A DNA stretch of 55,698 bases from Alistipes sp. (GTDB lineage: Bacteria; Bacteroidota; Bacteroidia; Bacteroidales; Rikenellaceae). A program made the position numbers and the translations under genes. Below are positions 25,053 through 40,067 of this stretch, piece by piece. The stretch's first letter is position 1. Each line of letters begins with the position of its first letter. The stretch is from positions 1-55,698 of the forward strand of contig JAFVRC010000048.1 in the NCBI GenBank assembly GCA_017504485.1, written 5' to 3'. The notes beneath the pieces were generated by a model that made no database searches, was not told where the DNA came from, and was given only the letters and a program-made list of their open reading frames with translations.

Positions 25053-27875
25053 ATGAAACGATTGATTACATCGCTCGCTGCCCTACTCTTGGCAGCGGTA
25101 GTTGTCGCCCAACCGGGCGCACAACAGATTCCTGTGCTGCCTGTCGATAAGCAGGTGCGCGTGGGGGAGTTGGAGAATGGTATGAAATACTACCTTCGCC
25201 ACAACGACAAGCAGAAGAACCTTGCCGATTTCTATATCGTGCACGATGTGGGTGCCATTCAGGAGAATGACGACCAGCAGGGCCTTGCTCACTTCCTCGA
25301 GCACATGGCCTTCAACGGCACGAAGAACTTGCCGGGCAAGATGCTCATCGAGTATCTCGAGACTGTAGGTGTGAAGTTCGGCGCGAACCTCAATGCCGGT
25401 ACCTCGTGGGACTATACGCAGTATCTCTTGAAGGATGTGCCTACGGTGCGCCCTGGCATTGTCGATTCGGCACTGCTCATTCTGCACGATTGGTCGCACT
25501 TCATCGCTCTGCAACCCAAGGAGATTGACTCGGAACGCGGCGTGATTATGGAGGAGCTTCGCACGCGAGATAATGCCCGTTGGCGCTCGCAAATCGAGAT
25601 GCTCAAGGCTCTGACGCGCGGCTCGAAGTACGAGCGCCGCAACCTTATCGGCTACCTCGACGGACTCAAGTCTTTTGACCATACATCGCTCGAGAACTTC
25701 TATAAGACGTGGTATCGTCCGGAGTTGCAGGCTGTGGTTGTCGTGGGTGATATCAATGTCGATGAGGTGGAGGGTAAGCTCAAAAAGCTGATGGCTGACA
25801 TTCCTGCTTCGCCTGCCGATGCTCCGCAGAAAGAGACGATTGTTGTTCCCGAGAATACGGAGCCTATAATCTCGATTTTCGAGGATCCCGAGATGACTCA
25901 GAGCTCCGCCACGCTCTACATCAAGCGCGAGGCTATGCCGAAGCAGCTCTGCAACACGCTTCTCTACGAGCAGATCTCGCTTGTCGATGCATTGGCCGGC
26001 GAGATGGCAAATGCCCGCCTCGAGGAGCTAACGATGAAGCCGGATGCTCCGTTCACGGGCGGATACTTCGCCAATGGTGGTATAGGTCTTTGCCCTACGC
26101 TCGATGTCTATGGCGTGTCGGTCACGACGGCTGATGGTCAGCTCGCCAAGGGCTTCGAGGCTGCCTGCACGGAGCTGGAGCGCATTCGTCGCCATGGCTT
26201 TACGGAGAGCGAGTTGGAGCGTGCCAAGAAGGAGGTTATGCTTGCGCAGGAGCGCAGTTATCGCAACCGCAACGACCGCAAGAATGGTCAGTTCGTAAAT
26301 CGCTACATCAGTGCCTTCCGCCGCAATACCCCGATGATGGATGCCGAGACTGAGTGGCAGATTGATAGTACGCTCATCTCGCAGATTCCGTTGCAGATGG
26401 TAAATCAGGTGGTCAAGCAGTATATCACGCCAAACAATCGCGTAGTGGTGGTTAATTGCCCGAAGAAGGAGGGCGTTATAAATCCTACGGAGGCCGACAT
26501 CAAGACTATCCTTGCGAATGTTGCGGCGGCCGATATCGCCCCTTATGCCGACAATGTGGTCAAGGAACCGCTTATCTCGGAGTCGAAGACGTTGAAGGGT
26601 TCGGCTGTCAAGAAGCAGTCGCAGAACGAGACCTTCGCCACGACCGAGTGGAAGCTCAAGAACGGCATCAAGGTCGTTGTTAAGCCTACTACGTTCAAGG
26701 CAGACGAGGTTGTCGTGCAGGGCATTGCCCACTTCGGACAGTCGTCACTCGCCGACGAGCTCTATTGGACGAGCTACTTCTTTGCCCCTATAATGCAGAA
26801 TCAGGGCTTGTCGAAATTCTCGGCCACCGACCTGCGCAAGCAGCTCTCGGGCAAGAATGCGAGCGTATATGGTGCGGCAGATGACTACGAAACCAATGTT
26901 GTGGGCCACGGCTCGCCACAGGATATGGAGACCATCATGCAGCTCCTATATCTCTTCTTCACCGAGCCACGCTTCAATGAGGATGACTTCAAGACCACGA
27001 TGAAGCAGTACGAGGCTATGTTGGCCAATGCCGCTACCAATCCTGACTTTGTTGCGGCACGCGAGGTGCAGAAGAGTCTCTATGGCAACCACTTCCGCCG
27101 CCAACAGGTGTCACCGGAACAGCTTGCTCTCGTCAAGTTCGAGCACCTGAAGCTTATCCACGAGACTCTCTTCTCGAATGCGGCCGACTATACGTTCTAC
27201 ATCGTTGGTAATGTGGATGTTGCGACGCTCAAGCCGCTTGTCGAGAAGTATCTCGGCTCGCTCCCTGCATCGAAGAAACTCCACAAGAAGCTCGACGATG
27301 GTGTGCGCACAGCCAAGGGTGTTGTCGAGAACGACTTCCGCACGCCTATGCAGCAGCCGAAGGTTACTGTGGCGCGCATCTACACAGGTGCTATCGACTA
27401 CACGTTGAAGAATCGCGTTGTTATGAGTGTGCTCTCGCAGGCTCTGCGCTCGCGCTACACAATCTCCATCCGCGAGGAGAAGGGCGGCACCTATGGTGTA
27501 GGTGTTGGCGGCCGACTCTCGCCCGACTACGACAGCAACTATCAGCTGCGCATACAGTTTGACACCAACGAGAAGATGGCTGACGAGTTGAGCGCAATTG
27601 TTGTCAAGGAACTCGAGAAGATGGCCTCCGAGGGCCCTCTTACGGAGGATATCGAGAAGGCTCGCCAGTATATGCTCAAGGAGTGGAAGAACCAGGTGGA
27701 GCAGAATGGTAATTGGGGTGATTGGCTCGATACCTACTACTCGCGCGGCATCGACCTTGTGAGTGACTACGAAAAGACGGTCAAGGAGTTCACGGCGGCC
27801 GATGTGCAGGCTCTCGTCAAGAAGATTCTTGCCGACAACAATATGACCTATGTGGTTATGCGCCCCGCCAAGTAG
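25053..27875 (+). CDS. M16 family zinc metallopeptidase (insulinase/pitrilysin type)
   Basis: 940 aa. Signal peptide MKRLITSLAALLLAAVVVA, cleavage before QPGAQ. The inverted zinc motif HXXEH is HFLEH at residues 80-84 (GLAHFLEHMAFNGTK), with the third ligand Glu in ERGVIMEELR near 165. The second half (after about 490) repeats the fold without the zinc motif, and RYTISIREEKGGTYGVGVGG near 812 supplies the conserved Arg/Tyr substrate-binding pair of the inactive half. These proteases degrade peptides inside a closed chamber, here in the periplasm. A single gene with a strong terminator after it; role in peptide turnover is likely. Confidence 0.95.
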   Translation: MKRLITSLAALLLAAVVVAQPGAQQIPVLPVDKQVRVGELENGMKYYLRHNDKQKNLADFYIVHDVGAIQENDDQQGLAHFLEHMAFNGTKNLPGKMLIEYLETVGVKFGANLNAGTSWDYTQYLLKDVPTVRPGIVDSALLILHDWSHFIALQPKEIDSERGVIMEELRTRDNARWRSQIEMLKALTRGSKYERRNLIGYLDGLKSFDHTSLENFYKTWYRPELQAVVVVGDINVDEVEGKLKKLMADIPASPADAPQKETIVVPENTEPIISIFEDPEMTQSSATLYIKREAMPKQLCNTLLYEQISLVDALAGEMANARLEELTMKPDAPFTGGYFANGGIGLCPTLDVYGVSVTTADGQLAKGFEAACTELERIRRHGFTESELERAKKEVMLAQERSYRNRNDRKNGQFVNRYISAFRRNTPMMDAETEWQIDSTLISQIPLQMVNQVVKQYITPNNRVVVVNCPKKEGVINPTEADIKTILANVAAADIAPYADNVVKEPLISESKTLKGSAVKKQSQNETFATTEWKLKNGIKVVVKPTTFKADEVVVQGIAHFGQSSLADELYWTSYFFAPIMQNQGLSKFSATDLRKQLSGKNASVYGAADDYETNVVGHGSPQDMETIMQLLYLFFTEPRFNEDDFKTTMKQYEAMLANAATNPDFVAAREVQKSLYGNHFRRQQVSPEQLALVKFEHLKLIHETLFSNAADYTFYIVGNVDVATLKPLVEKYLGSLPASKKLHKKLDDGVRTAKGVVENDFRTPMQQPKVTVARIYTGAIDYTLKNRVVMSVLSQALRSRYTISIREEKGGTYGVGVGGRLSPDYDSNYQLRIQFDTNEKMADELSAIVVKELEKMASEGPLTEDIEKARQYMLKEWKNQVEQNGNWGDWLDTYYSRGIDLVSDYEKTVKEFTAADVQALVKKILADNNMTYVVMRPAK

Positions 27876-27903
27876 TTGCGGCGCACTACCCTAATCTCTC
27901 GAA

Positions 27904-27939
27904 GAGGATGTTCGACGATGTTTCGGACATCCTCTTTTT
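27904..27939 (+). terminator. Rho-independent terminator after the M16 protease gene
   Basis: GAGGATGTTCGA (27904-27915) pairs with TCGGACATCCTC (27923-27934) with one G-U pair, loop CGATGTT, then five T. It lies 28 nt after the stop codon. Confidence 0.92.
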
Positions 27940-28303: not shown

Positions 28304-30949
28304 ATGAAAGCAAGAAAGTTTTTTGCATTTGTAGCCGGAGCAGCAATGCTGTTCGGTGCTGTGGGTTGTACGACCGATGATGCGGAGAAGGCAAATGACA
28401 CCGAGAAGTGTGTCATCACCGTTGCTCCGGAGAGCGTTGCTACAACTTTGGAGGGCGGCGACTGCGCCGTTACGGTTACGACGAATGGCAGCTGGACGGC
28501 AAGCTGCGACGTAGAGGGCGTAGCCGTTACTCCGGCCGAGGGTACGGGCAATGCCGAGGTCGTTATTACGGTGCCTGAGACCGACAAGGCTCGCAACTTC
28601 TCGGTTGTGTTCAATGCCGAGAAGATGGTTACTGTCGAGGGTTACTCTTCGCTGTCGCACGACGATGCTACTGTTACCGTTTATCAGAACGCAAGCGGCG
28701 ACGACAGCGTGGAGACCAATGTTGCCGAGGTTCGCGCACTGTTGGAGGCTCTGAATCCAACGAAGAACGGCGTAGAGGTTACCGCGGAGATCGCTGCTAT
28801 GACCTTGACAGGTGTCGTTATCGCCGAGCCTGACAGCAATATGGGTAACAATAAGACGATTGCTATTCAGGATGACGATAATGCTGCAAATGGCGGTTTG
28901 ACTATCTACTGCACCGACAACGTGAGTGACGACCTTGAGATTGGCAATATCGTAAACATCAATTTGACGGGTGCCAAGGCCGCGCTGTACGGCGGTCAGC
29001 TTCAGGTTTCGAATATCGCATCGACGGCTATCGTTGCCGATGGCTCGGCTAATGTGACGGCTATCGACGTTACGCTCGACAATATCCTCGACTACGAGTC
29101 GCAGTATGTGAAGTTGAGCGGTGTTAGCCCTGTGCAGAGTTTTGTAGGCCAGGCGTGGAACGATACGGGCTCGACTCGCAATGTTACCTTTACGACCGAG
29201 GATGGCAAGACCTTCGATGTACGCGTAAGTGCATACGCCTCGTTCAAGGATGAGATTATCCCCGGCAAGACGGGCAGCCTTTGCGGTTGCGCAGGTGTGT
29301 ATAACGGAGCTGTTCAGTTGTGGCCACAAACTTCGAGCGATATTCAGCTCACTAACGATATTGTCTCTCTCACGGCTGATGATATTGTCGGCGTTTCGGC
29401 AGACGGAGTAGCCGATGCAACAGCGGAGATTAACGCTATGAATATTTCGGGTGCGATTACCGCTACGCCTGATGGTGTTGTCGTAACGAAGGCCGAGGTT
29501 TCGGGCTCGACACTCACCTATACGGTGTCGGCCAATACCACAGCGGATACACGCGAGGGTTCGATTGTTCTCTCGGCTGCGGGCGTAGAGGATGTGACGA
29601 TTAAGGTTTCGCAGCTCGCTGCGGGCAAGACCACTATCGATATCAAGGATGTTATCGCAGATGCAGAAGTTACTATTCGCGGTTTGGTTTCGGCCGTGGG
29701 TAGCAAGGCTGCTGTCTTGACCGATGCTACAGGCTCGATTCTTTTGTATTACAACAAGGTTCCTGCAGTTGCTCTTGGTGACGACGTAGAGGTTAAGGGC
29801 ACAGCTATCCGTTATAAAGGTTTTCCTACCAACTCTTTGCAGATTGATATGACCACGGTTGCCGAGGGCGATGTTGTAGTTCATTCGAGCGGCAATACCG
29901 TAAGCTACAACCCTACCGTACTCGATGGCGCAGCTATCGACGGAATGGTTGGCAAAGATGCCGATTGTATCGAGGTGCAGTTTGAGGGTACCTTGAATAT
30001 CGGTCAATATGCAAATGTTACGATTGAGGGCGGAAACAAGCAGGCTTCGCTCTACTATGTAGATACAAATAACTATGCTGCGTATAATGGCGCAAAGGTT
30101 GTCGTTAAGGGTTATGTGACCGGTACATACAACTACCTCAACGTATTGCCATATTCGGTAACCAGCGAGGCTAAGGTTATTATGTGCGACGATATTGTCG
30201 TGCCTGCTGATGGCGCAACCGATGAGGTTGCCAACTTCACGGCTCTGAACATCACGGGCGCAATTACCGCTACGCCTGACGGTGTTGTCGTAACGAAGGC
30301 CGAGGTTTCGGGCAGTACGGTTATCTACTCGGTAGGCGCAAACACCGGCGAGGCTCGCGAGGGCTCGATTACCCTCTCGGGTGATGGTGTCGTGGTTGTG
30401 GTAAAGGTTTCGCAGGCCAAGAAGCCGGCAGAGGGTGCAGGTTCGTATGAGCTTACTCTCGCAGATATAACCTCCATAACTTACTCCGACAGTTGGTGCG
30501 ATTGGACCAAGACCGCAGCTGATGGCTCGTTGTGGAGCGGCTTTGCCTACAAGCAGACGAAGTACTATCAGTTCAGTTGGAGCGATAAGGATGGTAAGAA
30601 TGCTCCTAGTGCGGATCAGAACAAGGCGTATATGCTCCTCCCTGCTGTTCCTGCGGGTAAGACGATTACCAAGATTACCATTACTCCGTATGTGGAAGGA
30701 AACACTACGACCACTAACGGTCGTAAGTTCGTTGTGTTGCCGGCAGACTTTGCATATACAACAACTATAGATTCGGCCGCTACTGAGGCTGTGAATGCTG
30801 CTTATGCTATTTCGGCCGCAACCGTTAAGAATTCGACGGACCCGATAGTTATCGATTTGAGCGGTGTTGCGAATCTGCCACAGCAGGTGCAGGTTCGTGC
30901 TATTCTGGGTGCTGCGTACATTTCGAGCATAAAGGTTGAGTTCGAGTAA
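28304..30949 (+). CDS. Surface lipoprotein with BACON-like and DUF5689/OB-fold-like modules
   Basis: 881 aa. Signal MKARKFFAFVAGAAMLFGAVGC has lipobox GAVGC; TTDDAEK after the Cys is acidic, like surface-export tags of Bacteroidota lipoproteins. A BACON-like module spans about 36-130 (ITVAPESVATTLEGGDCAVTV). A DUF5689-type domain follows at about 145-350 (VAEVRALLEAL, TGVVIAEPDSNMGNNKTIAIQD). Two near-identical modules with the block NISGAITATPDGVVVTKAEVSGS (about 380 and 650) flank an OB-fold-like region with VTIRGLVSAVGSKAAVLTDATGSILLYY. The C-terminal 160 residues look like a beta-sandwich. OB-fold-like parts suggest nucleic-acid binding, supported by nuclease neighbours. No catalytic motif seen. 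Confidence 0.85.
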   Translation: MKARKFFAFVAGAAMLFGAVGCTTDDAEKANDTEKCVITVAPESVATTLEGGDCAVTVTTNGSWTASCDVEGVAVTPAEGTGNAEVVITVPETDKARNFSVVFNAEKMVTVEGYSSLSHDDATVTVYQNASGDDSVETNVAEVRALLEALNPTKNGVEVTAEIAAMTLTGVVIAEPDSNMGNNKTIAIQDDDNAANGGLTIYCTDNVSDDLEIGNIVNINLTGAKAALYGGQLQVSNIASTAIVADGSANVTAIDVTLDNILDYESQYVKLSGVSPVQSFVGQAWNDTGSTRNVTFTTEDGKTFDVRVSAYASFKDEIIPGKTGSLCGCAGVYNGAVQLWPQTSSDIQLTNDIVSLTADDIVGVSADGVADATAEINAMNISGAITATPDGVVVTKAEVSGSTLTYTVSANTTADTREGSIVLSAAGVEDVTIKVSQLAAGKTTIDIKDVIADAEVTIRGLVSAVGSKAAVLTDATGSILLYYNKVPAVALGDDVEVKGTAIRYKGFPTNSLQIDMTTVAEGDVVVHSSGNTVSYNPTVLDGAAIDGMVGKDADCIEVQFEGTLNIGQYANVTIEGGNKQASLYYVDTNNYAAYNGAKVVVKGYVTGTYNYLNVLPYSVTSEAKVIMCDDIVVPADGATDEVANFTALNITGAITATPDGVVVTKAEVSGSTVIYSVGANTGEAREGSITLSGDGVVVVVKVSQAKKPAEGAGSYELTLADITSITYSDSWCDWTKTAADGSLWSGFAYKQTKYYQFSWSDKDGKNAPSADQNKAYMLLPAVPAGKTITKITITPYVEGNTTTTNGRKFVVLPADFAYTTTIDSAATEAVNAAYAISAATVKNSTDPIVIDLSGVANLPQQVQVRAILGAAYISSIKVEFE
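29453..30313 (+). repeat. Pair of in-frame 54-nt direct repeats within the lipoprotein gene
   Basis: Copies at 29453-29506 and 30260-30313 differ at two positions by my reading. The distance of 807 nt is 269 codons, so recombination between them would delete or duplicate one module without a frameshift. Only the end coordinates of the pair are given here. Confidence 0.85.
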
Positions 30950-30971
30950 TCGAGCTCGACACCCATACAAT

Positions 30972-30998
30972 CCAAGGCAGGCTGACTACCTGCCTTGG
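30972..30998. other. Strong hairpin without T-tract between lipoprotein and NUC1 genes
   Basis: CCAAGGCAGG (30972-30981) and CCTGCCTTGG (30989-30998) form a perfect 10-bp stem with loop CTGACTA. No T run follows, so it is unlikely to be a complete terminator. It may stabilise the 3' end of a processed lipoprotein transcript. Confidence 0.8.
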
Positions 30999-31047
30999 GT
31001 ACTAATTTAGCGGAACGAATAGGATTTTTGTAGAGCCGACACAAAGA

Positions 31048-32319
31048 ATGAGAGATTGGATTAGAGATTTACAGTGCGTACTGAAAGGCATCAACCGCAA
31101 TGTTACGATTGTGTTGGTGCTTATATTCGCTTTTGCGGGGTGCTCCGAGGAGGAACTCCCTTGGTCGCCATACCCTTCGAAGGCTACAATTGCGTACTCC
31201 ACAATCAACTTCGACCAAACGTCGGTGTCGGGCACTACGGTGGGCGATTCGCGCTTCTCGTGGAGCCTTGCGGTGGAGGAGGGCTCGGCGTTCTGCCGAG
31301 CGAAGGCGACAAGTGGGCAGGTGGGCACATCCTTTACCCTGCTCTTCGATCGCAACGACGGCGCAACATCCTCGCGCACGGCAAAGGCAACCATAACCTT
31401 CACGAATGGCTACACGAGAACATTTGTCATCGAGCAGCTTGGCGAGTCGTCGAATGGTGAGTTCGAGCGTGCGTGGGGCGAGCAGCCCGACTACAAGTCG
31501 AATACGGCCTATGCCTATAAGACCTACTTTACGACATTGCGCAACGGACAGCGCGTGCGCAACTACTCGATATGCTACGACACGGAGAAGCTCGTGTCGC
31601 ACTGGGTGGCCTATCCGCTCCACAAGATATACACGGATAGAGGCACCTACAAGGCCGGAAATTCGAATGGCCGCACCGATGCGTGGGCATTCGACGATGC
31701 CGTATGTGAATATATCTCCTCTTCGCCATACTACAGAGTCGTAGAGTATGACTATACCGACCCTGTAATTCCGCAATCGCAACAGTGGTATGCCACCGCA
31801 ACCTACGGAGGTGGCTACGCTCGAGGCCATATGCTTCCATCGGCCTCGCGATATAACACCTTCAACACCAATGCGCAGACCTTCTATTCGACCAACATCA
31901 TGCCGCAGGCCTACGACTTCAACGGCGGCTCGTGGTCAAACCTCGAAATCAAGGTGCGCAGTTGGGCTTGTGCGGATACGCTCTACGTCGTTGTGGGTAC
32001 ACTCTTTGAGGGCACGAAAAAGCTGACGAAGAGTGGCCGCACGACACTTGTGCCGTCGCACGCCTTCAAGCTCGTGTTGCGCACCAAGAGTGGCACGACG
32101 GGCAAGCGCTTACAGGATATAACCTCGGCCTCTGAGCTCAAATGCATAGGTTTCCTCTACGAGAACAGCAACTCCGAGGAGGAAACAACCCCCGCGGAAG
32201 CGGCCATATCGGTAGCCGACATAGAGCGACGCTCGGGCTTTAAGTTCTTCCGCAATCTCAACCCTAAAGTTGCGGATGAGGTGAAGGCGCAGAAGAGCTT
32301 GAGCGATTGGGGTATATAA
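31048..32319 (+). CDS. DNA/RNA non-specific endonuclease lipoprotein (NUC1)
   Basis: 423 aa. The N-terminus has a charged start and then VTIVLVLIFAFAGCSEEE, with lipobox FAGC and acidic residues after the Cys, so surface exposure is plausible. Residues about 40-135 form a BACON-like beta domain (ATIAYSTINFDQTSVSGTTV). The C-terminal nuclease has YARGHMLPSASR (ARGH in place of DRGH; the catalytic His is kept), FYSTNIMPQ (metal-binding Asn) and WSNLEIKVRSW (Glu). It should cleave DNA and RNA endonucleolytically with Mg. Clear paralogue of the protein at 11704. Gap of 36 bp to the next nuclease gene. Confidence 0.92.
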   Translation: MRDWIRDLQCVLKGINRNVTIVLVLIFAFAGCSEEELPWSPYPSKATIAYSTINFDQTSVSGTTVGDSRFSWSLAVEEGSAFCRAKATSGQVGTSFTLLFDRNDGATSSRTAKATITFTNGYTRTFVIEQLGESSNGEFERAWGEQPDYKSNTAYAYKTYFTTLRNGQRVRNYSICYDTEKLVSHWVAYPLHKIYTDRGTYKAGNSNGRTDAWAFDDAVCEYISSSPYYRVVEYDYTDPVIPQSQQWYATATYGGGYARGHMLPSASRYNTFNTNAQTFYSTNIMPQAYDFNGGSWSNLEIKVRSWACADTLYVVVGTLFEGTKKLTKSGRTTLVPSHAFKLVLRTKSGTTGKRLQDITSASELKCIGFLYENSNSEEETTPAEAAISVADIERRSGFKFFRNLNPKVADEVKAQKSLSDWGI

Positions 32320-32355
32320 AGATGAAAGAAGATTAAACAAATAAATAAACCTCTT

Positions 32356-33387
32356 ATGAAAAGAACACTTTTATCCATTTTGTGCGTCTCGGCGATGCTA
32401 CTCGCATTCGCACAAAAGCCCTACAAGGTGATGTTCTACAACTTCGAGAACCTCTTCGACACGCTGAATGACCCTGCGACCTTCGACGAGGAGTTTACGC
32501 CGAAGGGCGGTAAGGCCTGGAACACGACGAAGTACAACAAGAAGCTCGGCAACCTCGAGCGTGTGTTGTTCGATATAGCCCTTATCGACAAGGACTACCC
32601 TGCCGTAATCGGTGTTTCGGAGATCGAGAACCGTATGGTGCTGGAGGATGTCATCGCACAGCCGAAGCTCCGCCCTGCGAACTACCGTATCGTGCATTTC
32701 GACTCGCCCGACCGTCGTGGTGTGGATTGTGCCTTCTTCTATCGTCCCGATGTCTTTAAGTTGGAGGGCAGCAAGGCCGTGAAGTTCAATATGCCGGGTA
32801 TGCCCAACTTTTATACGCGCGACTTCGTGACGATGTGGGGCACGATTGACGGCGAGCCGTTCTACTTTGTGGTGTCGCACTGGCCATCGCGCCTCGGCGG
32901 CAAGGAGGCTTCGTCGCCAAAGCGCGAGGCAGCCGCTGCGCAGTGTCGCGCTCTGGCCGACTCGGTACGCAAGGCAAACCCTGCAACCAAGGTGGTTATT
33001 ATGGGTGACTTGAACGACGATGCAACGGACAAGAGCGTCATGGAGATTCTTGGCGGCAAGGGCAATATCAAGAAACTCGTCGAGGGCGATATGTACAACC
33101 CGTATGTTGATATGTTGCGTGCCGGCTACGGAACGCTCGCCTATCGCGATGCGTGGAACCTCTTCGATAATATCGTAATCTCCGAGAATCTTGCCACTGC
33201 CTCGACCGGCGCACTCAAGATACAGAAGGCCCCGAAGGCCAAGTTCTACGGCAATATCTTCCGCGCCCCGTACCTCTTCCAGCGCGAGGGGCAGTACAAG
33301 GGCTACCCTCTCCGTACCTTCGTGGGCAACAACTTCCAGGGTGGTTTCAGCGACCACCTTCCGGTATATATCTACATCGGCAAATAA
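32356..33387 (+). CDS. Exported endonuclease/exonuclease/phosphatase family nuclease
   Basis: 343 aa. Signal peptide MKRTLLSILCVSAMLLAFA, cleavage before QKPYK. EEP-fold catalytic residues are visible in order: VMFYNFENLFD (Asn), VIGVSEIENRMVLE (metal-binding Glu), VDCAFFYRPD, VVSHWPSRLGG (His-Trp), IMGDLNDD (Asp/Asn) and GFSDHLPVYIYI at the end (Asp-His). This set matches DNase I-like phosphodiesterases. In the periplasm or at the surface it could cut DNA or RNA fragments; a phosphatase role cannot be excluded. It lies between the NUC1 lipoprotein and the TonB receptor, 22 bp from the latter. Confidence 0.93.
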   Translation: MKRTLLSILCVSAMLLAFAQKPYKVMFYNFENLFDTLNDPATFDEEFTPKGGKAWNTTKYNKKLGNLERVLFDIALIDKDYPAVIGVSEIENRMVLEDVIAQPKLRPANYRIVHFDSPDRRGVDCAFFYRPDVFKLEGSKAVKFNMPGMPNFYTRDFVTMWGTIDGEPFYFVVSHWPSRLGGKEASSPKREAAAAQCRALADSVRKANPATKVVIMGDLNDDATDKSVMEILGGKGNIKKLVEGDMYNPYVDMLRAGYGTLAYRDAWNLFDNIVISENLATASTGALKIQKAPKAKFYGNIFRAPYLFQREGQYKGYPLRTFVGNNFQGGFSDHLPVYIYIGK

Positions 33388-33409
33388 GAAACTATATAAA
33401 CAGTAAGAG

Positions 33410-36400
33410 ATGAAACTGAAAATTTTACTTTGGATTGCGGCGGCAGTGGCGGCAGTTATTGCCGGCGTAGCAATCTTTGCTCCGAAGCAGGATAAGGCTG
33501 TCGAGGAGCAACAGACCGTAGTGGCCGAGGAGCCTATTGAGGAGCCCGCCATTGAGCCACAGGCTCCGGTCGTAGAGGAGCCGACGACCACCGAAGCGGA
33601 GGAGGTTGCGGCAAAGGCTGAGGCGGAGCGACTCGCTGCCGAGAAGCGCCAGCAGCAAGCGGCGGCCAAACGTCGTGCGGCCGAGGCAGAGGCAGAGAAG
33701 CGTCGCGCGGCAGCAGCAAAGGCCGAGGTCGAGCGTCTTGCGGCCGAAAAAGCTGAAGCCGAGCGTGTGGCTGCCGAGCAGGCGGCAATTGTAGCCAAGG
33801 CTGAGGCGGAGCGTATAGCCGCCGAAAAGGAGGCTGCGGCAAAGGCTGAGGCAGAGCGACTCGCTGCCGAGAAGCGCCAACAGCAACAGCAGGCTCTGGC
33901 CGCCATTTCGGGCGGTGTGAAGGGCCGCGTAGTGTCGCGCACGAACCGTGCGGCGGTAAATAACGTGAAGGTGACTATCGCGGGAACTGATCGCGGTGTG
34001 GTGACCGATAATAGCGGCAACTTCGTAATCGAGGGTGTGCCGGCCGGCGACTATACGTTGCAGTTTGCTGCTCCGGAGTACGAGAACCTCGATGTCGTGG
34101 TCAAGGTAGGCCCCGAGATGAAGGATATCAACACGGTGGTTGTAGCTCCGACGATGGTCAATGAGGTGATGGACGACTCGATATTTGCCGAGTACGACAA
34201 CGACTCGTCGGCCTCCGATATGCAGGCTCTCCCTTCGTCGCTCTCTGCCTCGAAGGATCTCTACAACAATATCGCCTCGTATCGCTTCAGCGAGATGCGC
34301 TTCAACGTGCGCGGCTACGACTCAAAGTACAGCGATATCTACTTGAACGGCATACGTTTCAACGATGCACTGACGGGTTACGGCCCGTGGTCGCTGTGGA
34401 GCGGTATGAACGACGCTACGCGTAATCAGGAGAGCACGTCGGGAATCACGGCCAGCGACTATGGCATTGGTGGTTTCGGCGGCTCGACAAACATCAATGC
34501 TCGCGCCTCGCAGATGCGCAAGGGCTTCCGCGCAAGCGTGTCGGGTGGTAACCAGATGTATAACTTCCGCGCTATTTTGTCGTATGCTTCGGGTATGCTC
34601 GACAGCGGATGGTCGTATGCCTTCTCGGTATCGACTCGCCAGGGTGGTAACTGCTATGTCGATGGAGTGTACTACAACTCGTATGGCTACTTTGCGGCTG
34701 TCGAGAAGCAGTTCAATCCGCAGCACCGACTCTCGCTTATGGTCCTCGGCACGCCGCAACAGCGCGGTGCGCAGCAGGCTTCGACACAGGAGGCCTACGA
34801 TATGTTCGGCAGCAACTACTACAACCCTAACGTGGGCTTCCAGGATGGTAAGTTGCGCAATACGCGCGTGCGCCGCTCGCATGAACCTATTATTATGCTC
34901 AACTACTTCTACGACATCAACGATAAGACTCGTCTGACGGCCGCCACATCGGTGCGCTTCGGCTTCAACGGCTACTCGGCATTGACGTGGAAGGATGGTG
35001 CTGACCCGCGTCCGGACTACTACCGCTATCTGCCGTCGAACTACACGAGTCAGATTGTGTCGAGTGACTACGGCTCGTTCCTTGCCGACAATATCGGAGG
35101 GCTGATCGAGCGAGGTCTTGTGAGCGAGGCTGTCGGTGCGATGCGCGACAATCGCATAACACCTGCCGTGCCAGGCGTCTTTCAGCCATCCTCGGCCGAC
35201 CAGATTTTCGACTATCTCGATGCCGCAGCCGGCGCACGTAATATCTGGACCGGTCGTATGGATTTCGATAATATGATTAACTCGAATCGCAACGGTATAG
35301 CATCGCCTTATGCCGACGGCCACCGCTCGAACTACATTATCGAGGAGCGTCATACCGACCAGATAGACTATAATTTCGCAGCCAATATCGCGCACGAAAT
35401 CAATAATAATCACCGCATAATCGGTGGTTTGAAGGCGCGTGTAAACCGCACGGAGTACTACGACAAGGTTAAGGATCTGCTGGGTGGCGACTTTTGGATA
35501 GATATCGACAAGTTCGCCGAGCGCGATATGGGTAGCAACGTAACGGCCTACCAGAACGATCTCGACTATTATAACGAGCACGGACATCCGCGTGTAGTGC
35601 GCGAGGGCGACAAGTTCTCGTATGACTACTATGCTCACATCCGTCAGGTGCGGCTCTGGGCTATGTACTCGCTTCGCCTCGGAAGCTTTGCGATGAACCT
35701 GGGTGCCGAGGCCGGCTATGCAGGTATGTGGCGTGAGGGTTTGTGGCGCAAGGGCCTCTTTGCCGAGGGTAACGAGTCGAAGGGCGATTCGAAGCATCTC
35801 AATTACCTGACCTACAAGGCCAAGGCTAACTTCTCATATCGCTTCTCGAATGCGCACGAGTTGGTGCTTAATGCCGCAGCTATTCAGGATGCACCAACCT
35901 TCAACTCGGCATTCGTCTCGCCGCGTACCCGTAACCATACGACGCAAGGCCTGACAACCGAGAAGATTTACAGTGCAGAGCTTACCTATAACCTCAATTT
36001 GCCGTACATTCAGGCTCGCGTGTCGGGTTACTTTACCAAGATGAATGACGGCGCGAAGGTTATCTCGTTCTACGACGATACACAGTCGTCGTTCACTAAC
36101 TTCGCAATGAGTGGCATTGACAAGCGTTATGCGGGTGTCGAGGTGGCTCTGCGAGTGCCAATCTGGGGTGGCATCGCGCTGCAAGGCGCTCTCAACTATG
36201 GCGACTACCGCTATACGTCGAACCCTACGTTTGTGCAGACGGTAGATAACAGCGCCGAGGTAAAGCTCATCGACAAGGTCTATTGGAAGAACTTCTATGT
36301 CGAGAGCACACCGCAGTTTGCGGCCAACGTAGGTCTCGACTTCCGTGGTCCGAAGAACTGGTTTGCATCCATCAACTTCAACTACTATGACAAGCTCTAC

Positions 36401-36796
36401 CTCTCGATGAACCCTGCATATCGCACAAACAACGCTATCGAGCCGTATGTCAAGTTGCTGCTCAACGGCACGTCGGATCAGCAGATTTGGGCTTTGCAGA
36501 GCATCGCGGCCATTCGCGCTCAGGAGGATTTGGGCGATGCGTGGACCCTCGCGGCCAGCGTGGGCAAGAACTGGTACATAGCGCGTAAATACACGCTCGG
36601 ATTTAGTGCCGAGGTGAAGAATATACTCAATAATCAGGGTATCCGCACGGGAGGTTATGAGCAGATGCGTATGCGCCGTGTCCGCGGTTTGGACAACGAT
36701 GGCAACCCTGCAACCAACTACTACTCGCGCTTCGATTCCAAGTACTTCTATATGCTGGGAACCACCTGCTTCGTGAATGTATATTTCCGCTTCTAA
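33410..36796 (+). CDS. TonB-dependent receptor with N-terminal TolA-like anchor and coiled coil
   Basis: 1128 aa. Residues 5-24 are hydrophobic (ILLWIAAAVAAVIAGVAIFA) after MKLK and lack a convincing signal-peptidase site because Pro follows FA. Residues 30-62 are Pro/Glu rich. Residues 63-163 are almost only Ala, Glu, Lys, Arg and Gln with repeated AEAERLAAEKR units, as in TolA. Then come a carboxypeptidase-regulatory-like domain (168-247, KGRVVSRTNRAAVNNVKV), a plug (FNVRGYDSKYSDIYLNGIRFND near 300) and a barrel ending CFVNVYFRF with terminal Phe. It should import a substrate across the outer membrane with TonB energy. Nuclease neighbours suggest oligonucleotides. The N-terminal extension is unusual for this family. 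Confidence 0.93.
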   Translation: MKLKILLWIAAAVAAVIAGVAIFAPKQDKAVEEQQTVVAEEPIEEPAIEPQAPVVEEPTTTEAEEVAAKAEAERLAAEKRQQQAAAKRRAAEAEAEKRRAAAAKAEVERLAAEKAEAERVAAEQAAIVAKAEAERIAAEKEAAAKAEAERLAAEKRQQQQQALAAISGGVKGRVVSRTNRAAVNNVKVTIAGTDRGVVTDNSGNFVIEGVPAGDYTLQFAAPEYENLDVVVKVGPEMKDINTVVVAPTMVNEVMDDSIFAEYDNDSSASDMQALPSSLSASKDLYNNIASYRFSEMRFNVRGYDSKYSDIYLNGIRFNDALTGYGPWSLWSGMNDATRNQESTSGITASDYGIGGFGGSTNINARASQMRKGFRASVSGGNQMYNFRAILSYASGMLDSGWSYAFSVSTRQGGNCYVDGVYYNSYGYFAAVEKQFNPQHRLSLMVLGTPQQRGAQQASTQEAYDMFGSNYYNPNVGFQDGKLRNTRVRRSHEPIIMLNYFYDINDKTRLTAATSVRFGFNGYSALTWKDGADPRPDYYRYLPSNYTSQIVSSDYGSFLADNIGGLIERGLVSEAVGAMRDNRITPAVPGVFQPSSADQIFDYLDAAAGARNIWTGRMDFDNMINSNRNGIASPYADGHRSNYIIEERHTDQIDYNFAANIAHEINNNHRIIGGLKARVNRTEYYDKVKDLLGGDFWIDIDKFAERDMGSNVTAYQNDLDYYNEHGHPRVVREGDKFSYDYYAHIRQVRLWAMYSLRLGSFAMNLGAEAGYAGMWREGLWRKGLFAEGNESKGDSKHLNYLTYKAKANFSYRFSNAHELVLNAAAIQDAPTFNSAFVSPRTRNHTTQGLTTEKIYSAELTYNLNLPYIQARVSGYFTKMNDGAKVISFYDDTQSSFTNFAMSGIDKRYAGVEVALRVPIWGGIALQGALNYGDYRYTSNPTFVQTVDNSAEVKLIDKVYWKNFYVESTPQFAANVGLDFRGPKNWFASINFNYYDKLYLSMNPAYRTNNAIEPYVKLLLNGTSDQQIWALQSIAAIRAQEDLGDAWTLAASVGKNWYIARKYTLGFSAEVKNILNNQGIRTGGYEQMRMRRVRGLDNDGNPATNYYSRFDSKYFYMLGTTCFVNVYFRF
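33608..33886 (+). repeat. Pair of 51-nt direct repeats in the coiled-coil coding region
   Basis: Copies at 33608-33658 and 33836-33886 differ at two positions by my reading and encode AAKAEAERLAAEKRQQQ twice. The 228-nt spacing is 76 codons, so slippage or recombination would change coil length in frame. Confidence 0.85.
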
Positions 36797-36823
36797 TGTA
36801 GCATTTCAAAACAAGAAGAGATT

Positions 36824-38332
36824 ATGAAACAGATAAAGATATTTTTGATTGCCATACTCGGATTGACGCTCACAAGTTGCTACGAGCAGTTCGACGAGCC
36901 GCAGCCTACGCAACTCTATAACGACGAGAGCTTCGAGGCGCAAAATCCGGACTATCAGCAGGTGTCCATCGCCACGATGAAGGGGTGGTTTGGCAATATA
37001 AGCAACACGGGAAACAATACCGACCGTAGCGATACGAAGTATATTCACTTCGTCGTAAATGCCGAGGAGGAGTGCGATGAGTTCACGCTCAAGAAGGGCT
37101 GGTATCGCGAAGGTAAGTACTACATCAAGGGTAAGGTTATCTCCAACGACGAGCAGGGCAACATCTACAAGTCGCTCTACATCTTCGACGGCACGGGAGC
37201 CATCGAGCTTAAACTCACGAATGGCCTCTTCCTTGACTACCCTTGCGACCTCGATTCGAAGCAGTCGATGTGGGTATATGTCAAGATTACGGGCCTATAC
37301 CTTGGCAACTTCCGTATGATGCTCTCGTTGGGCGATATCCCTACGTCGAGCTACAATGCGTGGGGTGCCTACAAGTACTACGCCAACTCGAATATCGTCA
37401 GCCCAATAAAGGTTCGTCAGTACGTCTTCCCGGGCGAGAAGGTCGAGCTTACGGAGGGTACGAACTATACGGACGATATCTACGTCGTGGATAAGAACAG
37501 CTACTCGACCATTTCGGGTAGCAATGCCACCAAGTTCTTCGGTCGTCTTATCCGCTTCAAGGGCTTGAAGGTGCACTATGCCGCAGTGCCTTACCTCGAT
37601 CACGATGGTACGGTGCGCGAAAATCCGGCATTGAAGAATGGTTCCTACAACTATATGTATCCGCAGTGGCTTTGTACGGCAGGCATTCCCGAGAACTTCG
37701 GCGGTGCGCCTACGCAGGTGGTTAATAAGCCGTGGTATCAGTTAGCCTACAGTCGCAATAACGTGGCACTCTATGGCAGCCTCGCTCTGCTCTACAACGA
37801 GTCGGCAACCTACACCTCCGACCACGGAGTATATACCCTGCGCACGAGCGGCTACTCGCGCTTTGCGGGCAAATATGCTCCTCGCCACGGAGAGATGGGC
37901 GACGTGTTGGCTATCTATGCTATCTACTCGAAACAGAGCACCTATGCGGGCGGTAGCCGTGACTATGCCACCTATCAGCTCTCCATTCCGCGATTGAAGG
38001 ATGCTACGTTCAAGATGGAGCCTGTGGATGACGGCTCAGCAATGTGGAATCAGTGGGCCGCACTGCTCAAATATGCCGAGGATAGCTTCCCGAGTTATGC
38101 GCAATATCCGGTTATTTCGGGCCGCACGGGCTCGCAGGAGGAGCGCAACGTTGCCGTAGAGGCGTGGAAGCAGGATTATACGGCTCGTATGAACGCTATT
38201 GCCGACGACGGCACGGAACTTTACGATGAGTGGAAGTCGTGGTTTGAGTGGTGCGTGTGGACAATCGAGAATACCACCGAGGAGTCCTACATGTTGCCGC
38301 AGTTGATCAACGATGACGATGACTTGGAGTAA
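36824..38332 (+). CDS. DUF5689-type lipoprotein (OB-fold-like)
   Basis: 502 aa. Signal MKQIKIFLIAILGLTLTSCYEQ has lipobox LTSC. The region about 45-270 has the DUF5689 look: IATMKGWFGN, then YYIKGKVISNDEQGNIYKSLYIFDGTGAIELKL and SMWVYVKITGLYLGNFRMMLSLG, which read as an OB-fold barrel. A second half from about 300 (WYQLAYSRNNVALYGSLALLY) resembles a beta-sandwich seen in related Bacteroidota lipoproteins. No catalytic motif. It follows the TonB receptor by 27 bp, the place SusD would take in a polysaccharide locus, so a substrate-capture role for nucleic acid is my inference. Confidence 0.85.
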   Translation: MKQIKIFLIAILGLTLTSCYEQFDEPQPTQLYNDESFEAQNPDYQQVSIATMKGWFGNISNTGNNTDRSDTKYIHFVVNAEEECDEFTLKKGWYREGKYYIKGKVISNDEQGNIYKSLYIFDGTGAIELKLTNGLFLDYPCDLDSKQSMWVYVKITGLYLGNFRMMLSLGDIPTSSYNAWGAYKYYANSNIVSPIKVRQYVFPGEKVELTEGTNYTDDIYVVDKNSYSTISGSNATKFFGRLIRFKGLKVHYAAVPYLDHDGTVRENPALKNGSYNYMYPQWLCTAGIPENFGGAPTQVVNKPWYQLAYSRNNVALYGSLALLYNESATYTSDHGVYTLRTSGYSRFAGKYAPRHGEMGDVLAIYAIYSKQSTYAGGSRDYATYQLSIPRLKDATFKMEPVDDGSAMWNQWAALLKYAEDSFPSYAQYPVISGRTGSQEERNVAVEAWKQDYTARMNAIADDGTELYDEWKSWFEWCVWTIENTTEESYMLPQLINDDDDLE

Positions 38333-38348
38333 TATATGAACAACAGAT

Positions 38349-38378
38349 AGCTCGTCTTGTGTGGCGAGCTGTTTTTTT
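38349..38378 (+). terminator. Probable terminator/attenuator within the nucleic-acid locus
   Basis: AGCTCG (38349-38354) pairs with CGAGCT (38365-38370) and is followed by GTTTTTTT. The stem is short, so termination may be partial. It separates the five upstream genes from the two S1/P1 nuclease genes. No promoter is seen between here and 38393. Confidence 0.6.
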
Positions 38379-38392
38379 AGCCTCGAAGAGAT

Positions 38393-39241
38393 ATGAAACG
38401 AATAGTTGTACTGATTGTTATGCTTACGGTGCTTGGCACGACGGCCTTCGCTTGGAGTGTGCGAGAGCATGCCACGGTGGCGCAGATTGCCGAGAATCAC
38501 CTCTCGCCCAAGGCTCGAAAACTCATCTCGAAGTATCTCGATGGCCGTCCGATGGCCTACTACGCCTCGCACGCGGATTACTATCGCAAAGATATGTTGG
38601 TCGATGTGGGCTTTGTGCGCGAGGATGGCTCGCGATTGGTCGTATTTCCTCACACCTTCCACGTCGATAGGAAGTTGAGAGCCTACCGCGATGTGGTAAA
38701 GAACGACGGTAAGATTTTTGGCAATATGCTCTATCACATAGACCGCCTCGCCTCTAACCTCAAAGAGAATCACCGCGCGATGAACGACTCGGTGCGCCTC
38801 ACCCATCTATACCTCATAATTCACGGCATAGGAGATATGCACTGCCCTATGCACATGCGCTTTGCAGAGCATAATGACGAGAAGTATAAGTCGCTCGGCA
38901 CCTATCAAGTGCTCTTTGGCAAGAACAAGAAGTGGCGCAAGATTGGTTACCACGCCATGTGGGATGCGCACATGGTCGGCCCGATACATCCGTGGGGCTA
39001 TGAGGATATGGCTCGCCTTTTCGATATCTACAACAAGCGCGAGGTGGCCCGCATCTGCGAGGGTGACATCTTCGCTTGGGGTGGCGAGGTGGCCAAGGTG
39101 GCCTACCCTATGCGCGAATATGGCCCTAATGCAAAGATTGACGAAATAGAGTATCGCCGCCGATATCAGCAGACGGCCGAGAACCTGTTGGCACAGGCGG
39201 GCTATCGTCTTGCAAAGGTGTTGAACGAGATATTGAAATAA
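38393..39241 (+). CDS. S1/P1-type zinc nuclease (first of tandem pair)
   Basis: 282 aa. Signal peptide MKRIVVLIVMLTVLGTTAFA; cleavage leaves an N-terminal Trp (WSVREH), as S1/P1 enzymes need because Trp1 binds zinc. With mature numbering, His6, Asp42, a His in HTFHVD, HGIGDMHCPMH (His, Asp at +4, His at +10) and YHAMWD (His, Asp at +4) supply all the zinc ligands known in P1. The enzyme should degrade single-stranded DNA and RNA to 5'-nucleotides and remove 3'-phosphates in the periplasm. The next gene, 10 bp on, is a paralogue. Confidence 0.93.
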   Translation: MKRIVVLIVMLTVLGTTAFAWSVREHATVAQIAENHLSPKARKLISKYLDGRPMAYYASHADYYRKDMLVDVGFVREDGSRLVVFPHTFHVDRKLRAYRDVVKNDGKIFGNMLYHIDRLASNLKENHRAMNDSVRLTHLYLIIHGIGDMHCPMHMRFAEHNDEKYKSLGTYQVLFGKNKKWRKIGYHAMWDAHMVGPIHPWGYEDMARLFDIYNKREVARICEGDIFAWGGEVAKVAYPMREYGPNAKIDEIEYRRRYQQTAENLLAQAGYRLAKVLNEILK

Positions 39242-39251
39242 TAAATGTGCT

Positions 39252-40067
39252 ATGAAACGTATAATCATCCTCTCTCTCGCAGCTACAATGCTTTGCACAA
39301 CCAGTTACGGTTGGGGACGACGCGAGCACGCTACGGTGGCTCAGATTGCCGAAAATCATCTTACGCCCAAGGTCAAGAGGCTCGTGACGAAGTATCTCGG
39401 TGGCCGCTCGATGGTCTATTATTCGTGTTATGCCGACGACTATCAACCGCTCTATATCGACCTTGGCTGGGAGCCGTCGAACTACCGCCGTATGGCGATG
39501 TTTCCGCACACCTACTGCGTGGATGGAGATTGCAAGCCGCCGCACCATATTAAGGATGGCGATAGGTATGTGAAAAACACGCTCTACTTTATCGACAAAT
39601 GGTCGCGCGAATTGAAGGAACAGCACGGTGCGATGAACGACTCCACGCGCCTCGTGCACCTCGCTCTTATAATTCACGCTGTGGGTGATATGCACTGTCC
39701 GGTGCATATCCGCTACCCCGACGACGAGACGCTCGGGGTCTATAAGGTAAAACTCGGTAAGCGCGAGGTCAATTACCACCGCCTCTGGGATGCCGATATT
39801 ATCGGCAAATACAATCCGTGGGGCTACAACGAGTTGGCTCGCCAATATGACACTTTCAGCAAGCACCAGGCTGCCGAGGTGGTCGAGGGGGATATCTATC
39901 AGTGGGGCGAGGATGCTGCACGTCGCGGATTGCCGGCTCGTCGCTATAAGAAGGGCGCGAAAATCAACCAACAAGAGTTTATGCGCGAATTTACTCCTGT
40001 GGCCGAGGATTTGATCTGCCGCGCGGGTTATCGCCTCGCTGCGTTGCTGAACGACACGTTCAAGTAG
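39252..40067 (+). CDS. S1/P1-type zinc nuclease (second of tandem pair)
   Basis: 271 aa. Signal peptide MKRIIILSLAATMLCTTSYG; cleavage exposes WGRREH, with Trp1 and His6. HAVGDMHCPVH and YHRLWD supply the central ligands. At the His60-equivalent the first paralogue has HTFHVD but this one has HTYCVD, so a zinc-binding His is replaced by Cys. It is close to its neighbour in the first 35 mature residues (EHATVAQIAENHL), so a tandem duplication is likely, followed by divergence. Substrate range may differ. A two-way terminator follows. Confidence 0.92.
   Translation: MKRIIILSLAATMLCTTSYGWGRREHATVAQIAENHLTPKVKRLVTKYLGGRSMVYYSCYADDYQPLYIDLGWEPSNYRRMAMFPHTYCVDGDCKPPHHIKDGDRYVKNTLYFIDKWSRELKEQHGAMNDSTRLVHLALIIHAVGDMHCPVHIRYPDDETLGVYKVKLGKREVNYHRLWDADIIGKYNPWGYNELARQYDTFSKHQAAEVVEGDIYQWGEDAARRGLPARRYKKGAKINQQEFMREFTPVAEDLICRAGYRLAALLNDTFK

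Follow-up and report, generated by a model that had tools for sequence, protein, structure and literature searches.

In the 55,698-nt contig JAFVRC010000048.1 of Alistipes sp. assembly GCA_017504485.1, analysed at its full length and called the window below, five consecutive genes form a conserved cassette that we consider somewhat likelier than an even bet to encode a TonB-driven nucleic-acid acquisition system, in which a DUF5689 lipoprotein takes the place of SusD as receptor lid. The window genome comprises 1.92 Mb in 48 contigs and is 82% complete; the nearest loci with labels belong to metagenome-assembled genomes of Rikenellaceae bacterium or Alistipes sp., which, where the isolate name tells the host, come from the hindgut of sheep, goat, yak and water deer. 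The cassette and the two genes that follow it comprise these features:

28304..30949, plus strand: DUF5689a, lipoprotein of 881 aa with DUF5689 and BACON domains (PF18942, E=2e-22; PF13004, E=7e-9)
30970..31000, plus strand: 12-bp hairpin between DUF5689a and NUC1 (whole gap z -4.1), a possible attenuator or RNA-stabilising stem
31048..32319, plus strand: NUC1-type endonuclease lipoprotein, 423 aa (Endonuclease_NS, PF01223, E=2.9e-36)
32356..33387, plus strand: EEP-family nuclease/phosphodiesterase with a cleavable-type signal, 343 aa (Exo_endo_phos_3, PF19580, E=7e-113)
33410..36796, plus strand: TonB-dependent receptor, 1128 aa (CarboxypepD_reg, plug, barrel)
33410..33904, plus strand: N-terminal extension of the receptor, a hydrophobic anchor and an Ala/Glu-rich linker of ~145 residues
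36824..38332, plus strand: DUF5689b, lipoprotein directly 3' of the receptor and its proposed lid, 502 aa (PF18942, E=1.7e-19)
38345..38378, plus strand: putative intrinsic terminator closing the five-gene cassette (12-bp stem, 6-nt loop, T-run)
38393..39241, plus strand: S1/P1 nuclease a, a separate unit and lineage-specific neighbour (PF02265, E=1e-22)
39252..40067, plus strand: S1/P1 nuclease b, sister of a (PF02265, E=4e-29)

The gaps between the seven open reading frames (ORFs) measure, in order, 98, 36, 22, 27, 60 and 10 nt. Their order, strand and spacing are as an earlier, sequence-only reading of this DNA had them, and its domain calls were borne out by Pfam for all seven genes. The export signals that it described, with an anchor in the receptor, were recognised by eye at the N-termini, i.e., lipoprotein signals in genes 1, 2 and 5, cleavable signals in genes 3, 6 and 7, and an apparently uncleaved anchor in gene 4, the receptor.

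The arrangement of genes 1 to 5 is more than chance, because their order is kept in related genomes. We compared 31 close loci, all selected by the presence of the receptor, 16 from same-genus genomes and 15 from named genomes taken to be of the same genus (receptor 71-79% identical); at least two duplicate pairs are among them (L052/L085 and L061/L081 are apparently the same contigs). The order NUC1, EEP, receptor, DUF5689b is kept in all 31, and DUF5689a lies 5' of NUC1 in 27, the contig ending there in L061, L063, L073 and L081. A hairpin with a T-run (-15 kcal/mol or better, a threshold fixed after a first look at the data) stands 3' of DUF5689b in 27 of 30 loci and 3' of DUF5689a in 12 of 27; 3' of NUC1, of EEP and of the receptor the count is 0/31 each. 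The gap that holds 38345-38378 folds at -18.1 kcal/mol (z -2.78; 1/200 shuffles as low). The terminator claim rests on this folding and on the hairpins compared across loci, not on the generic consensus terminator scan, which does not list the site and found no clear excess of sites in the window (15 vs 11.3 in shuffles, sd 3.7); a sigma-70 promoter scan of the window likewise gave 11 sites vs 11.2 in shuffles.

With a 12-bp stem and T-run between gene 5 and the S1/P1 pair, a single transcript of all seven genes is improbable, and because the hairpin 3' of DUF5689b is conserved, the conserved transcript likely ends ahead of the pair. A search with an S1/P1 profile placed the pair next to the cassette in 0/35 related loci (L082 ends at DUF5689b); L084 alone among them carries an S1/P1 copy, ~7.5 kb downstream and past four intervening ORFs, and the pair was seen beside the cassette in the window genome only. 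A seven-gene operon was rejected on these two grounds. The sequence-only reading had proposed a SusD-less locus, similar to a polysaccharide utilisation locus (PUL), for nucleic acids captured by DUF5689 proteins, with the S1/P1 pair as members. Its core is supported by the conserved five-gene cassette, by S1/P1 genes that co-occur with it and by a Riemerella pair tied to DNA uptake, and the membership of the S1/P1 pair is not supported; the conserved co-occurrence that it had suggested as a check was found for DUF5689, NUC1, EEP and receptor together and not for adjoining S1/P1 genes. It had overlooked the receptor-DUF5689-EEP module across the class, the link to transformation, the receptor linker, the S1/P1 expansion and the changed Asp in the DRGH motif of NUC1.

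We propose that DUF5689a and NUC1, predicted to be outward-facing lipoproteins, would catch DNA or RNA on the outside of the cell and cleave it, that DUF5689b would act as the receptor lid and feed the polynucleotide into the barrel, and that the receptor would move it through the outer membrane with TonB energy. The EEP enzyme, presumably periplasmic, together with the separately encoded S1/P1 enzymes, would then release nucleotides and phosphate, and breakdown and uptake could be completed by the products of genes elsewhere, a 5'-nucleotidase and a NupG-type symporter; one protein with a 5'-nucleotidase C-domain and one strong match to a NupG-type symporter were found in the window genome. 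Feeding is the most likely purpose, because the conserved cassette encodes nucleases along with the proposed importer, and the added nucleases in the lineage of the window would point to feeding on phosphorus, nitrogen or nucleosides over gene uptake.

The plan recalls the SusCD PULs and BtuB-BtuG, where a TonB-dependent receptor is followed by a lipoprotein able to act as a lid, and enzymes are added (PMC10404256). It differs from SusCD in the DUF5689 lipoprotein that stands in for SusD, in nucleases that replace the glycosidases, and in that none of the seven genes described here encodes a sensor or regulator. Linked hydrolases are present in the cassette (NUC1 and EEP), while DUF5689b has no SusD match; because the SusD test fails, the cassette is not a SusCD locus, although the system would work like one.

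The window NUC1 carries ARGH and NGGSWSNLE, so the His of the DRGH motif and the downstream Asn are present; among its relatives, Arg-Gly-His occurs in 32/32 and the Asn pattern N-x3-W-x2-LE in 19/32. Its relatives in the PDB are nuclease 2o3b/1zm8, EXOG and EndoG, and we take the 2o3b/1zm8 chains to be NucA mutated at the DRGH Asp. Its lipobox, recognised by eye, has an acidic stretch after the Cys (CSEEE), and acidic stretches of this type resemble surface-export signals. The EEP protein contains SEIEN, SHWPSR, GDLND and SDH, so that the Glu, His, Asp-x-Asn and Asp-His motifs of Exo_endo_phos_3 are all present, and presumably the catalytic residues are those that we assign within them. In some relatives the strict patterns fail (e.g., SEIEN and SDH[LF]P in L061 and L080-L082), probably from conservative changes.

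In DUF5689a, Cys22 is followed by TTDDAE, and the column of Cys19 of DUF5689b is invariant in a 39-row class-wide alignment (for L119 and L121 the second gene downstream was taken). When one DUF5689 gene from each of 38 loci and that of the window were scanned with Pfam, PF18942 was found in 39/39, DUF5017 in addition in 10/39, which is the architecture of Riemerella RS04920, and Lamin Tail in two, Beta_helix in one and InhA-like_MAM in one. A profile of these 39 proteins matched one PDB chain, 8jiy (a DUF4955 protein), over the C-terminal third, and a PDB sequence search with DUF5689b gave no useful match. Tandem pairs of small DUF5689 proteins also occur, a second one in the window genome on contig C20 (L158:7428-8928) and others at L171:6680-8234 (G004) and G019 C1:22741-24214; by eye, no receptor was seen beside those in L158 and L171. 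In a control search, PF18942 also matched above cut-off in Bacillus subtilis, in a protein that we guess to be the YhcR nuclease.

The core of the cassette seems to be ancient. The receptor profile has a strong match in 77 of 296 Bacteroidia genomes, the window genome included, usually one per genome. In f81, a family taken to be Flavobacteriaceae, 139 of 149 genomes match, some with a second weaker match; three candidates per genome were scored in the former sample and five in the latter, so a single match need not mean a single copy. In 38 of 40 class loci (exceptions L136 and L142) the first or second gene downstream of the receptor is of the DUF5689 type, and in 32 an EEP gene adjoins the receptor upstream, with one ORF between in L154; the loci without adjoining EEP are L122, L125, L128, L133, L136, L142, L143 and L156. 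Locus L127, from another family of the same order, has all five genes in the order of the window. Within f81, 10 of the 13 genomes tested have a single DUF5689 match and the others two or three; in every one of the 13, no more than ~1 kb separates the best match from the receptor.

A link runs from this module to natural transformation in Riemerella anatipestifer, where RA0C_RS04915, a CarboxypepD_reg protein predicted in the outer membrane, and RA0C_RS04920, with DUF5689 and DUF5017, form a predicted operon, and markerless deletion of either brings transformation below detection (PMC8459023). Across Flavobacteriaceae the homologues of the two lie side by side, except that F. columnare has a DUF5017 gene between them and Galbibacter lacks RS04920, and in a model that its authors call speculative RS04915 carries DNA through the outer membrane (PMC8459023). 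The window has the same arrangement, a CarboxypepD_reg barrel adjoining a DUF5689 protein, and TonB genes affect the process in Riemerella, where transformation drops when tonBA and tonBB are deleted (PMC8383284). The window differs in having NUC1, EEP and a second DUF5689 lipoprotein in the cassette and an anchored receptor linker. From architecture, adjacency and copy number we infer that the receptor-DUF5689b pair is of the same family as RA0C_RS04915/RS04920; we would class it with the Riemerella-type pair, as a variant and a putative orthologue.

Several observations weigh against the acquisition system proposed here. Homologues of RS04915 are reported only in Flavobacteriaceae (PMC8459023); our receptor profile reaches Bacteroidales. 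Outside f81 a genome has one to five DUF5689 matches, a single one in 6/15; because DUF5689 is thus often multi-copy there, the single-copy argument does not hold everywhere. A motif search of the 40 class loci found no ComEC- or RecA-like gene near the receptor, so the closeness expected from the Riemerella locus tags was not seen, and ComEC itself is found in the window genome and in 45/46 genomes searched, cassette or not. The OB-fold model PF01336 matched two of the 39 DUF5689 proteins, weakly, and no concentrative nucleoside transporter was found in the 82% complete window genome. In the window NUC1, Ala replaces the Asp of DRGH, which is kept in 7/32 relatives and gone in 25/32, and its activity is therefore unsure. 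The EEP superfamily also cuts phosphodiesters other than nucleic acids.

The main rival to feeding is that the receptor-DUF5689 pair is primarily a transformation gate, whose nucleases trim incoming DNA and for which feeding is a by-product. We hold it to be unlikely, to be taken seriously all the same since the corresponding Riemerella pair is essential for transformation (PMC8459023) and ComEC is at hand, too common to discriminate and so leaving room for a competence role. Transforming DNA could fall prey to the two nucleases that the cassette itself encodes; moreover, the receptor is missing from 9 of 37 genus genomes, of which the seven searched all keep ComEC, and F. johnsoniae has homologues and is not competent under the conditions tested (PMC8459023; PMC7965970).

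A second alternative is phosphorus scavenging from other phosphodiesters, such as phospholipid head groups, teichoic-type polymers or cyclic and inositol phosphates, with the EEP and NUC1-like enzymes acting on non-nucleic substrates and the receptor importing the product. The breadth of the EEP superfamily, a PDB sequence search that found no solved relative of the EEP protein, and a NUC1 without its DRGH Asp would all fit this, as would the PUL-like systems for organophosphorus with phosphodiesterases in Flavobacterium (PMC8115612). We nevertheless judge it less probable than the transformation gate, as two unrelated nuclease folds stand together, DUF5689 neighbours have Lamin Tail (2/39) or OB-fold (2/39) matches, pf00932 (Lamin Tail) is also found in two Flavobacterium extracellular nucleases (PMC8115612), and the Riemerella phenotype is one of transformation.

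The proposed uptake of nucleic acids by a TonB receptor system also sets the cassette apart from known loci for their breakdown. The ExeM/NucH-type nucleases and the loci of Ca. Izemoplasma share genes for nucleic-acid breakdown, which in Ca. Izemoplasma are clustered with transport and read as feeding (PMC8289736); ExeM is a single multidomain nuclease, and Izemoplasma combines nucleases with ABC transporters. The window EEP scores 21.9 bits against the ExeM model, far below the 300-bit cut-off. To the knowledge of the Izemoplasma authors, such multi-gene DNA-degradation loci were undescribed in other microorganisms (PMC8289736). The phosphate utilisation systems (Pus) of Flavobacterium are likewise TonB receptor loci beside phosphodiesterases; PusD is SusD-like, the extracellular nucleases there are orphan genes, and the word DUF5689 does not occur in the main text of that paper (PMC8115612). 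Our literature search, made on titles and abstract openings in a collection that lacks preprints and most subscription journals, gave no description of the five-gene cassette or of the S1/P1 dyads described below.

It is not settled how nucleic acid passes the outer membrane in Bacteroidota; of the eight genes essential for Riemerella transformation, four are unlike known machinery (PMC8459023). With a receptor present in those 139 f81 genomes, the receptor-DUF5689-EEP module brings this question within reach of tests in laboratory strains, and it connects gene uptake with feeding. If the feeding explanation is true, nucleic acids join the polymers taken up via PUL-like loci in gut Bacteroidales.

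The receptor of the window has an unusual N-terminal arm. Its Plug match is sub-threshold in Pfam (21.2 vs a cut-off of 23.9 bits), and PDB sequence searches with the receptor gave no match or matches only across the CarboxypepD_reg part. At the N-terminus stands a hydrophobic stretch in which no signal-peptidase site is clear, and 145 residues with much Ala, Glu, Gln, Lys and Arg separate it from the CarboxypepD_reg domain. The same arrangement of anchor and linker occurs in L074 (from 9458; linker of 156 residues, of quite different composition) and L084 (from 9491; 147 residues), and the other 22 of 25 receptors have, by eye, a shorter signal-peptide-type N-terminus with no such linker; a second copy of the extension was not found in the window genome at E<=0.01. 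A helix of 145 residues is ~22 nm long, close to the usual width of the periplasm. Because the linkers are alike in length and unlike in sequence, the comparison of these three sequences suggests that the arm may act as a tether. A frame artefact was rejected, as the extension is in frame and those of L074 and L084 are alike in length and different in sequence.

The S1/P1 nucleases, which would complete periplasmic breakdown, are strongly expanded. A profile search of the window and of stretches of its own genome found 37 S1/P1-type proteins (Pfam alone 32); the stretches were chosen by PF02265 matches, and others may exist elsewhere in the genome. Eighteen of the genes form a tandem array on contig C11 (3069-17554; L009), in which intact and degenerate copies mostly alternate. 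An assembly error was rejected, since the array lies within a 140-kb contig beside genes that we take to be MurG/MurC-like from their sequence starts; six or more PF02265 matches in nine genus genomes, that of the window included, also count against it. Nine numbered residues make up the S1/P1 zinc site. All nine ligand positions are present in 25 of the 37 proteins, including both window copies, which thus have the residues of a trinuclear zinc site, and the other 12 keep one to six. In both window copies the signal is directly followed by the Trp with which the mature protein should start, and S1 nuclease binds its zinc ions by the N-terminal Trp plus His and Asp (PMC5201275). Copy b matches the S1/P1 nuclease 8qjl in the PDB (E=1.2e-16).

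In a quick tree of 76 S1/P1 proteins from the window genome and relatives, with the Shimodaira-Hasegawa-like approximate likelihood ratio test (SH-aLRT) as sole support and a midpoint root, the window copies a and b are sisters (SH-aLRT 99). All 12 degenerate genes lie directly 3' of another S1/P1 gene, which is intact in 11 cases and degenerate in one (12661). Sixteen degenerate members of this first type group together (support 100), and their intact neighbours fall within a single group of 15 (support 99). For 14 dyads the distances of the two partners agree (r=0.76; 0/20000 permutations as high), and the nearest neighbour is the same for both partners in 8/14; because of this agreement, intact and degenerate genes seem to have been duplicated together, although shared physical position alone could explain the pattern. 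The degenerate partner might, at a guess, be part of a heteromer or an inhibitor, and the co-duplicating nuclease/pseudonuclease dyads are a puzzle separate from the cassette. Arrays of four or five S1/P1 genes in five relatives (L159-L163, from G003, G006, G028, G029 and G030) have as second gene a different degenerate type, which falls elsewhere in the tree and for that reason seems to have arisen apart.

The S1/P1 genes and the receptor occur together. Among 37 genus genomes, S1/P1 is present in 25/28 with the receptor vs 2/9 without (Fisher p=0.0003, kinship ignored), and six or more copies occur in 9/28 vs 0/9; G009 was counted as receptor-bearing because a fragment of the receptor lies where one of its contigs ends. 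The 296 class genomes have at most six first-look S1/P1 candidates among the rows listed vs 37 in the window genome, of which eight were scored, so that this comparison rests on first-look counts. A repertoire of 37 diversifying genes seems beyond the needs of feeding and would suit a defence in which nucleases at the cell surface and in the periplasm break down phage DNA or foreign DNA, with the receptor a bystander. Such a role is highly improbable in our view, given the conserved receptor-lipoprotein pair within the cassette and the position of the S1/P1 genes outside it. We hypothesize, tentatively and with more doubt than for nucleic-acid acquisition itself, that Bacteroidota have a TonB polynucleotide importer with a DUF5689 lid, turned to gene uptake or to eating according to lineage, and that here the receptor would be tethered to the inner membrane by a periplasm-spanning arm (145 to 156 residues, three receptors) and served by S1/P1 dyads of active enzyme and pseudoenzyme that duplicate as a unit and are maybe heteromers.

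Two further features lie upstream of the cassette in the window:

25053-27875: M16 peptidase gene
27901..27937, plus strand: terminator-like site after the M16 gene and left border of the cassette (15-pair stem, then a T-rich tail)

A hairpin with a T-run follows the M16 gene in 17 of 18 loci. The gene itself shifts in position, being upstream of the cassette in the window, L057, L058 and L060, downstream of it in L072-L079, L083 and L085, and on the opposite strand in several more.

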